This document shows positions 2,906 through 5,660 of a stretch of 15,459 nucleotides of DNA, one piece after another (the stretch's first letter is position 1; each line of letters begins with the position of its first letter). Under the pieces are notes generated by a model. The model made no database searches, was not told where the DNA came from, and saw only the letters and a list, made by a program, of their open reading frames with translations. The translations under genes were made by a program, and so were the position numbers. The DNA lies in contig JAGZRY010000017.1 in the NCBI GenBank assembly GCA_018381425.1, positions 1 through 15,459 on the forward strand, in the 5' to 3' direction. This DNA is from Haemophilus parainfluenzae. Its GTDB lineage: Bacteria; Pseudomonadota; Gammaproteobacteria; Enterobacterales; Pasteurellaceae.

Positions 2906-4120
2906 TTAACCCACTACTGGAGGCAATACACCTAATTTAATTAGGAATGGGATACTCACAATAATAATCCCTAGAATTGAGACAAAGAGTAAGAACCCTG
3001 AACCACCTGGCACACGATAAGGTAAATTTGGATGTTGATGGCGAGCCTTCCAAACCAATGCGGCAGGCAATACCACTGCATAGAAAGCAAACATTTGTCC
3101 TGCATAGCCTAATGCAAGGATGAAGCCTTCTGGATAGAAGAATGCAAAGAGCAATGGCGGAAGGAAGGTTAAGAAACCTAAACTTAAACGGTTTGCCGAA
3201 AAATTGAATACACGTTTTAACAAGTCGTCAATACATTCTAATAAACCGAGTGCCACCCCTAAGAACGAGGTAATCAGTGCTAAGGCAGAGAAGATTTTCA
3301 CGATAGCAGCAATAATAGTACTGCCTGTAATCACACGAACCGCTTCAATCAATCCATTTAATGTTGGATCTTGATTAAGGATTTCTAAGAAGCGAGTTTG
3401 GCTTAATACACCGTGAGTTGAAAATTGCCATAAGATATAACCCACCAATGTGATTGCAGAGCCCACAATAATCGAAAATCTTAAGGCTTTTACATCACCT
3501 TCTAAGTATTTATTTAAGCAAGGGATCGAACCATGGAAACCAAAAGCGGTAAAGAAAACTGGGCTAGCTGAAATTAATAAGGCTTTATCAATTGGTATGG
3601 CCATTAAGTTATCGATTTTAATTTCGGGGATCATCAATCCAAGCACGATAAATAAAGCGGCAATCATCGCAATAAACAAGAAGCGATTTAGCGCATCCAC
3701 AAAGCTTGTACCAATTGCTACGAAAACACCAAATAAGATTGTAAATGCAAGGATAGAACCTTTCATTTTCAAATCAGGAGCAGCAAAATCAGGTAAAGTT
3801 GAAGCAAGAATTGCACCACCACCGGTCACATAGGCGGAAAGCAATGCATAAAGGAAAATCATTAATACGCTAGTTGCGACAATTCGTCCTGGTCGGCCAA
3901 AATATTGTGCAGCAAGTGTACCAATACCGGCATCATGTTCAGCGGTTTGATAAACCTCAACAAATAATAATGCACTATAAGTGAGTAGGATCCATAAAAG
4001 AATAAGTAGAACGACTGTAAACGTAAAACCTATTCCAGCAGATGTGAGAGGCATAGCAAGCATCCCTGCGCCAATCATCGTCCCTGAGGTAATTAAGGTA
4101 CTTCCCAATGTTTTATTCAT
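2906..4120 (-). CDS. tyrP: TyrP/TutB-type tyrosine permease (HAAAP family)
   Basis: Inner-membrane proton-coupled aromatic amino acid importer, 404 residues; E. coli TyrP has 403. The N-terminal signature TLGSTLITSGTMIGAGMLAMP (about 4-24), the central FTAFGFHGSIP motif and the C-terminal GVLPPVVG all align with TyrP rather than Mtr or TnaB. About eleven hydrophobic segments are visible. A good AAGGAG Shine-Dalgarno lies 7 bases before the ATG. The gene is downstream of tyrosine phenol-lyase on the same strand (163-bp gap), the arrangement known for tpl-tutB in enterobacteria, so tyrosine uptake for the lyase is the likely job. A strong hairpin terminator lies in the gap, so expression needs read-through or its own promoter; I found no convincing promoter. 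Substrate specificity is inferred from similarity and neighbour. Confidence 0.9.
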   Translation of the reverse strand: MNKTLGSTLITSGTMIGAGMLAMPLTSAGIGFTFTVVLLILLWILLTYSALLFVEVYQTAEHDAGIGTLAAQYFGRPGRIVATSVLMIFLYALLSAYVTGGGAILASTLPDFAAPDLKMKGSILAFTILFGVFVAIGTSFVDALNRFLFIAMIAALFIVLGLMIPEIKIDNLMAIPIDKALLISASPVFFTAFGFHGSIPCLNKYLEGDVKALRFSIIVGSAITLVGYILWQFSTHGVLSQTRFLEILNQDPTLNGLIEAVRVITGSTIIAAIVKIFSALALITSFLGVALGLLECIDDLLKRVFNFSANRLSLGFLTFLPPLLFAFFYPEGFILALGYAGQMFAFYAVVLPAALVWKARHQHPNLPYRVPGGSGFLLFVSILGIIIVSIPFLIKLGVLPPVVG

Positions 4121-4241
4121 GAGTTTTCTCCTTTCCGATTATCGTAGAAAGGCTAGTCACTTCCTTACTTGACAATACATCAAATTACAATGTCATTAGA
4201 ATGTTTTCGCATTTTTCTCATTAACCAAATATTTTTTAGAT

Positions 4242-4276
4242 ACAAAAAGCCCTTACCCCGTTACTGAGGTAAGGGC
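4242..4276 (-). terminator. Rho-independent terminator after tpl
   Basis: On the minus strand, GCCCTTACC (4276-4268), a loop, GGTAAGGGC (4257-4249) and then TTTTTGT form a 9-bp GC-rich stem with a T5 tail, beginning eight bases after the tpl stop codon. It separates tpl from the permease gene and would lower permease transcription relative to the lyase. Confidence 0.85.
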
Positions 4277-4283
4277 GGTAGGC

Positions 4284-5660
4284 CTATTTTTGTTCAAAAC
4301 GTGCAGTGAAGAAACGTAATTGTTTTGGTTCATACACGAAACGAAGCCCTTTAATATCCTCTTTATGTTTGAATAAGTGGATAATACCATCAGCAACTAA
4401 ATCCATGTGTGCATAGGTGTAAACACGACGCGGAATAGTAATACGTACAGTTTCAAGTTTTGGATGATGGTTTTCGCCAGTTTTGATATCACGACCAGCT
4501 GAAATAATACCACGTTCCATTGTACGCACACCGCATTCAACATAGATTGCTGCAGCTAATGCTTGTGCTGGGAAGTCTTCTTCTTGTTTCAAATGTGGAC
4601 AGAAACGACGTGCATCTAAGAACACCGCATGACCACCAATTGGTTCTACAATCGGTACACCTGCTGCTTTTAATTTTTCACCTAGGTAACGTACTTGTTT
4701 AACACGATGTTCAATGTACTCTTCCTGAGTTGCTTCTTTCAAACCGATCGCCATTGCTTCCATATCACGACCAGCCATACCACCGTAAGATGGCATACCT
4801 TCGAACACAACAACCAATTCTTTCGCTTTCATGAACAACTCTTCATCATTCATACATAAGAAACCACCGATATTAGTTAAGCAGTCTTTTTTACCACTCA
4901 TTGTACAACCATCTGCATAGCTGAACATTTCTTGAACGATTGATTTAATTGAGCGATCTTGATAGCCTGGTTCTTGTTCTTTAATGAAATAAGCATTTTC
5001 AATACAACGTGTTGCATCGTAGAACACTTTAATGCCGTGTTTTGCTGTTAATTCACGAACCGCTTTCATGTTTGCGATAGAAACCGGTTGACCACCTGCT
5101 AAGTTTACTGTTACCGCCAAGCACACATAAGCAATATTTTCAGCGCCTTTTTCGTTAATTAATTTTTCTAATTTTTTAACATCAATATCGCCTTTAAATG
5201 GCACATCTAATGTCGCATCATGCGCTTCATCACGAATAATATCGTAGAAAATACCGCCATTAGCTTCTTGGTGGAAACGTGTAGTCGTAAAATACATATT
5301 ACCTGGCACGTATTGACCCGGTTTAATCGCGATACGAGAAAGAATATTTTCAGCACCACGACCTTGGTGAGTTGGCACAATATGTTTGAAACCAAATAAG
5401 TCTTGAACTGTTTCTTGTAAATGATAGAAGTTTCGGCTACCTGCATAAGCTTCATCACCCATCATAATACCGGCCCATTGACGGTCACTCATTGCATTCG
5501 TACCGCTATCGGTTAAAAGGTCAATATAAACATCTTTTGAATCAAGTAAGAAGGTATTGAAGCCTGCCGCTTTCATTGCTTTTTCACGTTCTGCTTTTGG
5601 TAAGATTGAAACAGGTTCAACACTTTTAATACGGAACGGTTCTGCTGGATAGTATGCCAT
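4284..5660 (-). CDS. tpl: Tyrosine phenol-lyase (beta-tyrosinase, EC 4.1.99.2)
   Basis: Cytosolic PLP enzyme cleaving L-tyrosine to phenol, pyruvate and ammonium; family members are homotetramers. The 458 residues match Citrobacter freundii TPL (456) almost throughout: [15 protein letters not shown] (4-18), [17 protein letters not shown] (43-59), GDEAYAGS (68-75), [10 protein letters not shown] (96-105), [13 protein letters not shown] at the C terminus. The PLP lysine is K258 in SGKKD, and the general acid tyrosine is Y72. The residues that separate it from tryptophanase are present: T125 in YFTTTR and R383 in MERGIIS, equivalent to C. freundii Thr124 and Arg381; tryptophanase has Ile at the Arg position. 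A strong AGGAG lies 7 bases before the ATG. It is first in a unit with the TyrP-type permease. Family annotation pipelines may call this tryptophanase; I consider TPL very likely. Confidence 0.95.

Follow-up and report, generated by a model that had tools for sequence, protein, structure and literature searches.

The window analysed here is a 15,459-nucleotide stretch of Haemophilus parainfluenzae DNA (GCA_018381425.1, contig JAGZRY010000017.1, positions 1 to 15,459), and the subject is a locus of three genes with a predicted part in the use of tyrosine. On the minus strand lie tpl (4284-5660, 458 amino acids), encoding a tyrosine phenol-lyase (TPL, EC 4.1.99.2), and tyrP (2906-4120, 404 amino acids), encoding a TyrP-type aromatic amino acid permease, both as placed in the initial annotation. 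The third gene, pas6 (2168-2845, plus strand), was not mentioned there. It encodes a transcription regulator with PAS_6 and HTH_22 domains (YheO-like), proposed below to act on tpl, and it is convergent with tyrP, its end lying 60 bp from the tyrP stop codon. The genome had been described as Haemophilus-type, which agrees with 11 copies of the uptake word AAGTGCGGT in the window against 0.09 expected, and with the best named locus for the lyase being that of H. parainfluenzae. Profile scans covered 7 of the 11 main open reading frames (ORFs) of the window, and the remaining ones were named by eye.

Is the lyase a TPL or a tryptophanase? Its residues 4-456 align with the C. freundii TPL structures (873.9 bits, 2e-262), in agreement with the initial claim of a match along its length, and the best tryptophanase match of the lyase scores 484.3 bits. 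The NCBIfam TPL equivalog TIGR02618 is passed (892.8 bits, cut-off 720.7), and both TnaA equivalogs are failed (551.1 against a cut-off of 750; TIGR02617, 535.5 against 825.8). Passages of PMC5805759 list five active-site positions at which TPL and tryptophanase differ, occupied in C. freundii TPL by Thr124, Met288, Met379, Arg381 and Phe448. The window lyase is of the TPL type at all five (T125, M289, M381, R383, F450), so that three residues join the Thr125 and Arg383 noticed initially, and it has the lysine that holds pyridoxal phosphate in C. freundii TPL. The combination T/M/M/R/F was found in 103/103 TPL rows, comprising the window, the best 80 of 582 confirmed loci and 22 family copies, with a frame-broken copy of the nearest genome, G001, excluded; D/F/V/I/H was found in 7/7 Pasteurellaceae tryptophanases. 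A phylogeny with TnaA and TPL references had also been suggested. In a tree of 56 rows chosen by hand from the residue comparison, 53 TPL rows and 3 TnaA rows split at 100/100, and the window lyase stands on the TPL side, outside TnaA. The warning that automated annotation might call the gene tnaA has a real basis, because the broad tryptophanase subfamily model is also passed (652.2, cut-off 285); the risk is small because the TPL equivalog outranks that model. This broad match is also what speaks for a tryptophanase overcalled as TPL by automated tools. Such a reading is hardly credible, as it is contradicted at the sequence level by the failed TnaA equivalogs, the five residues and the tree. 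For a TnaA of the same bacterial family, used as a control, the TnaA model gives 946.9 and the TPL model 490.1. The product of 4284-5660 is thus almost certainly a TPL as judged by homology, an enzyme of an already known and widespread kind.

A search that detects tryptophanase elsewhere in the family gave none in the 11 genomes of the nearest genus, so phenol rather than indole would be the expected product. In G063 (C1:854436-855814) a tryptophanase-type lyase gene lies in two pieces, one with an internal stop. Phenol from tyrosine is the source of phenyl sulfate in the host. In a db/db mouse model of kidney disease, plasma phenyl sulfate fell when TPL inhibitors were given, according to a review (passages of PMC11104709).

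The family scans were made on 140 genomes. The TPL cut-off was passed in 22 of them, to which a frame-broken copy (G001) and a contig-edge copy (G121) are added. In G001 (C2:1081549-1082900) the reading of tpl falls into two overlapping pieces that differ in frame, so that the gene looks broken, and tyrP and pas6 are intact. In G121 (C118:1-206, locus L237) the tpl promoter and the first 22 codons stand at a contig edge; this 24th carrier was missed by the presence scans and detected via the promoter scan described below, and no pas6 was found in it. L081, L082 and L083 (G108, G041 and G136) form a second Pasteurellaceae TPL group, distant at 70-71% identity, with a TyrP-type permease, TyrR boxes or box-like sites and no pas6.

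The initial annotation placed a TyrP-type permease downstream of the lyase. The protein passes the aromatic amino acid transporter (araaP) subfamily (429.9, cut-off 350). Among equivalogs it scores highest on TyrP NF011711, with 434.9 below the cut-off of 482, and the tryptophan permease model scores 195.6. We use the label TyrP-type and nothing narrower, because the broader subfamily is reached and the TyrP equivalog is not. It very probably takes up tyrosine. A tyrP match of at least 68% stands beside tpl in 32 of 35 Pasteurellaceae loci, the exceptions being L010 and L084, without an adjacent tyrP, and L093, with a 29% match. Do the two genes form an operon? The tyrP start lies 163 bp past the tpl stop, with a strong intrinsic terminator between them (4249-4276, minus strand). 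Its hairpin is common to Haemophilus, Aggregatibacter and Rodentibacter; among 7 sequences, 6 of its 11 pairs show changes on both sides. The covariation score was reached by 0 of 500 shuffles; four of five measures beat all 500, and for the fifth, which counts further pair types, 102 of 500 shuffles came up to the observed value. The lyase and permease module proposed initially thus holds as an adjacency of genes and not as a simple operon, because the terminator separates these two same-direction neighbours. In R. caecimuris (L196:11013-12389, plus strand) an NhaC-like antiporter (365.2 bits, cut-off 370) stands between tpl and pas6 in TyrP's place, and may be an alternative tyrosine carrier.

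The pas6 product shows PAS_6 at 94.9 bits and HTH_22 at 56.0 bits, both over the cut-off, and the gene lies between tyrP and a ShlB-type secretion gene. Among the 11 genomes of the nearest genus, six have a pas6 copy 97-100% identical, and these are the same six that have tpl, counting the frame-broken gene of G001; the other five have only a paralogue at 28-34%. Over the family, a pas6 match at 1e-30 was found in 18 genomes, 17 at 63% identity or more and one (G012) at 43%. All 17 carry tpl, and G012 does not. Its relative (L200:9491-10201, minus strand) is divergent from genes resembling, by eye, amino acid or organic acid catabolism. Carriers of tpl without pas6 are G041, G088, G089, G108, G114 and G136. 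Both genes are present in 6/11, 6/9 and 4/15 genomes of three genera, and the gene order of the trio is kept in Haemophilus, Aggregatibacter and Rodentibacter. Judged by this linkage, pas6 is part of the tpl cassette. No sequence relative of pas6 was found in the PDB, and no motif was seen as conserved across genera in its own promoter.

The region upstream of tpl was read for 21 loci, 14 of which are rows with pas6. In the window a perfect CRP site, TGTGAN6TCACA, lies at 5768-5783, centred some 115 bp before the tpl start codon; 0.51 sites with at most one mismatch are expected in the whole window by chance. All 14 rows have such a site with zero or one mismatch, which begins 113-128 bp ahead of the start codon. 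Directly upstream of this site the rows have an AT-rich palindrome with the core ATAA-N4-TTAT, which in the window abuts the CRP site as candidate operator 1 (5785-5804). Further upstream, the Haemophilus rows have a second perfect palindrome, TTTGATA-N6-TATCAAA, candidate operator 2 (5825-5844). The palindrome has three matches in the window with at most two mismatches against 0.29 expected, two of them overlapping, for a motif composed after the matches were seen. Between the seven Haemophilus rows and the seven rows of the other two genera, identity is 0.65-0.77 in the promoter block and 0.83 in the leader segment from -76 to -59, and 0.11-0.29 beyond about -216. The conserved 5' leader segment (5703-5734, minus strand) holds a six-pair stem, AACTCG/CGGGTT, with all pairs formed in 13 sequences; its covariation is uninformative because five of the six pairs never vary. 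For a tnaC-like leader peptide, the upstream alignment was inspected by eye. No Rfam match was found.

When the palindrome and CRP site were scanned for as one composite pattern in the 140 genomes, it was found at tpl in 17/17 genomes with pas6, at 113-128 bp from the first tpl base matched by the model, and in 0/6 TPL genomes without pas6. In total there were 40 places in 39 genomes, 17 at tpl in genomes with pas6, one at the tpl start of G121 and 22 elsewhere; a reversed control pattern gave 3 places. The detection of G121 is a small independent success of the pattern.

How is tpl regulated in enteric bacteria, and does the same hold here? In the enterics TyrR activates the gene together with CRP and IHF (passages of PMC6375630 and PMC1173090). 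In the window no TyrR box with two or fewer mismatches was found, an absence that is only mildly telling because 2.5 sites are expected by chance. Perfect boxes stand at the tpl of G108 (-133) and G041 (-126), both without pas6, and G136, also without it, has a box with two mismatches at -126. In all 11 genomes of the nearest genus, six of them with pas6, the TyrR model matches only from position 192-201 of 520, so that about 200 N-terminal positions are absent from the TyrR of these relatives. In 12 further genomes, TyrR is full-length in G041 and G136 and short in all five with pas6 (G019, G020, G118, G123, G132); it is also short in G060, which has no tpl. Altogether, a short TyrR was found in 11/11 pas6 genomes tested, and a short TyrR also occurs without pas6.

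These results can be read as one scenario, a tyrosine-use cassette in which tpl would stand under CRP and under Pas6 in the place of TyrR, which we regard as probable. Its computed starting points are the enzyme identity, the permease type, the gene linkage, the conserved promoter block, the short TyrR of the relatives and the terminator. TyrP would import tyrosine, and TPL would then split it in the cell; cleavage of tyrosine to phenol, pyruvate and ammonia is the established chemistry of the TPL family. Pyruvate and ammonia would be used, and phenol would leave as waste. Transcription of tpl would need CRP, acting when sugar is low and bound some 40 bp before a start site that was placed by eye. 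Pas6 would bind the AT-rich palindrome or palindromes, its putative operators, just upstream of CRP, with tyrosine or one of its products as the presumed ligand, and so assume the role held by TyrR at enteric tpl. The terminator past tpl would limit read-through, leaving tyrP at a lower level or under a promoter of its own. We infer that pas6 and CRP, and not TyrR, may control tpl. That Pas6 acts at tpl in either direction seems moderately likely from linkage and promoter conservation. More tentatively, in Haemophilus, Aggregatibacter and Rodentibacter a dedicated PAS_6/HTH_22 sensor may have taken the place of TyrR as CRP's partner. It would respond to tyrosine or phenol at a fixed composite site of palindrome and CRP box, in an exchangeable cassette spread by natural transformation. 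If this is true, one catabolic gene has been rewired from a global to a local regulator within one bacterial family, the little-studied PAS_6 sensor family gains a substrate-linked role, and both a ligand and a target for it can be tested.

Several observations weigh against control by Pas6. Linkage in one cassette can also reflect joint gain and loss without regulation. The composite pattern was composed after 13 of the 17 genomes had been seen, and the other four are of the same genera. Its 22 places elsewhere, most of them in genomes that lack pas6, compare with 3 in the control, so that an AT-rich palindrome next to a CRP site is not confined to tpl. For these reasons 17/17 versus 0/6 is a matter of consistency and not an independent test. 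The second palindrome is clear only in Haemophilus, not in the other genera. Outside Pasteurellaceae a PAS_6-type gene was found near TPL in 1 of 68 loci (flanks up to 10 kb, many shorter), and the nearest relatives of Pas6 outside the family are in Campylobacter, mostly 49-56% identical, one of them named as a flagella interaction regulator. That regulator, CfiR (Cj1387c), as described in PMC4519771, represses its adjacent gene, which is of another kind. The target of CfiR and the 22 places away from tpl, with the joint presence and absence in three genera expected of a single block (G121, of the third genus, has a tpl start at a contig edge and no pas6 found) and the uptake-word dyads often found at block borders, favour a reading in which enzyme and permease are right and pas6 is a passenger of the same transformation block acting elsewhere, with tpl under CRP alone or with an AT-rich binder such as IHF or Lrp. 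This is possible, though we hold it doubtful: in R. caecimuris pas6 and the promoter element are retained even though the permease between them was replaced, the trio stays together in Aggregatibacter where the flanks differ, the tpl promoter has no exact IHF consensus, and the one locus outside the family, L074 of Bacillota, has a PAS_6/HTH_22 gene near tpl, with another gene between.

If Pas6 does act at tpl, in which direction? Activation fits a Pas6 site upstream of CRP, and repression fits, by analogy, CfiR as the nearest studied relative. The latter would make Pas6 a repressor of tpl, tyrP or both, relieved by tyrosine or phenol. A regulator site upstream of the CRP site is commoner for activators, and the candidate sites here lie upstream of the CRP site and not over the promoter core as read by eye, so that repression appears unlikely. 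A continued role of TyrR, as in Citrobacter and Erwinia, has in its favour that the homologue is kept in 11/11 genomes of the genus, with the DNA-binding domain intact in G001 (the one genome examined further), and that boxes stand at tpl in the second TPL group. The short TyrR also does not separate the genomes cleanly, and this too counts against replacement by Pas6: G108 has a short TyrR, no pas6 and yet a perfect box, G088 and G089 have a short TyrR with neither pas6 nor a clear box, and G114 lacks pas6 and shows just a fragment of TyrR. With no box in the window and the N-terminal part of TyrR gone in the relatives, control by TyrR is nevertheless very unlikely at this locus.

The locus can be compared with known systems. 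It resembles the enteric tutB-tpl type (Pantoea/Erwinia; Citrobacter tpl), where in 17/17 enteric loci the TPL gene is likewise closely followed by an aromatic permease, and the enteric loci L013 and L037 also have a hairpin past tpl. The enteric partner permease, which we take to be TutB, is only 28-31% identical to that of the window, and in L013, the one scanned, its best equivalog is the tryptophan permease (437.0 against 234.2 for TyrP), whereas that of the window is TyrP. The name tutB-tpl is found in passages of PMC3505739, and CRP, whose site lies upstream of tpl in the window, is involved at enteric tpl according to passages of PMC1173090. The difference lies in two parts, the permease and the regulator: enteric tpl is activated by TyrR, and the window has no TyrR box, a linked PAS_6 gene and relatives with a short TyrR. 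The window lyase differs from C. freundii TPL (1TPL) by a one-residue insertion before Arg383 and by sequence divergence, with no functional difference visible. Regulators of the CfiR/YheO type share both domains and the size of Pas6. CfiR is linked to an endoribonuclease L-PSP (RidA-like) gene (PMC4519771), and no such gene is among the 7 of 11 main window ORFs scanned; the neighbours of pas6 are tyrP and the ShlB-type gene. We treat Pas6 as a CfiR homologue and not as CfiR. In open-licence literature no paper was found on the combination of TPL, TyrP-type permease, PAS_6 regulator and palindrome-CRP promoter, nor a title or abstract opening on TPL of Haemophilus, Pasteurella or Aggregatibacter, and the passages of the TPL literature at hand do not mention Haemophilus or Aggregatibacter among carriers of TPL.

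Where does the cassette sit? The initial annotation stated that the tna cluster of H. influenzae lies between nlpD and mutS and set tpl about 7 kb upstream of mutS. The adjacency of tna to mutS was found in one genome of another Pasteurellaceae genus, G060, whose tna genes lie directly beside mutS. As in the window there is a lyase with a permease, but the enzyme is another (44% identical to that of the window) and so is the permease (29%). The H. influenzae cluster was reportedly described by Martin et al. in 1998 as horizontally acquired. In the window tpl is indeed close to mutS, with six genes between (names partly by eye), and this closeness means little because tpl sits at another site than tna. 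The tpl side of the cassette adjoins an osmB-like gene in six genomes of the genus. In G077, which lacks tpl, the osmB-like gene is followed by small ORFs and then by purT- and luxS-like genes (by eye), with no cassette; purT- and luxS-like genes, again by eye, stand on the pas6 side in Haemophilus G076 and three Rodentibacter genomes. The five genomes of the genus without tpl keep asd-pldB, and the Aggregatibacter trio is elsewhere, beside a gene resembling efp by eye. The ends of gene blocks often coincide with inverted uptake-word pairs, which is in keeping with exchange of the cassette by natural transformation. A dyad of about 65 bases made of two inverted uptake words, as at window 1486-1553, recurs across genomes, with 29 matches on both strands in G001 (40 of 551 candidates scored), and two inverted uptake words also form a terminator-like hairpin, on both strands, between pas6 and tyrP (2848-2885).

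As to the origin of tpl, the trees were drawn from the best 80 of 582 confirmed loci and thus cover close relatives. In a quick tree the Pasteurellaceae TPL clade stood beside Bacillota and apart from enteric TPL. In the approximately unbiased test (p-AU), the constraint joining Pasteurellaceae and enteric TPL was not rejected, at 0.876, the constrained tree outscoring the free one, and at 0.502 in a second test; nor was grouping with Bacillota/Treponema, at 0.538, or joining the two Pasteurellaceae TPL clades, at 0.8 and 0.122. Any claim of a donor was dropped, since none of these groupings is rejected.

Some minor features were also noticed. A second beta-eliminating lyase, 45-48% identical to the window TPL, stands no more than about 6 kb from the TPL gene in L068, L073 and L074, two of Bacteroidota and one of Bacillota. 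A partial ShlB/FhaC-type two-partner secretion transporter gene stands at the window edge (3-1439, minus strand); it has matches in 7 of 11 genomes of the genus, lies on the outer side of pas6 in G001, G079 and G081, and in G001 is in pieces in different frames. At 6215-6517 (plus strand) is a small glycine-zipper lipoprotein-like protein with a weak OsmB match under the cut-off, whose long His/Lys/Asp-rich tail might bind metal.

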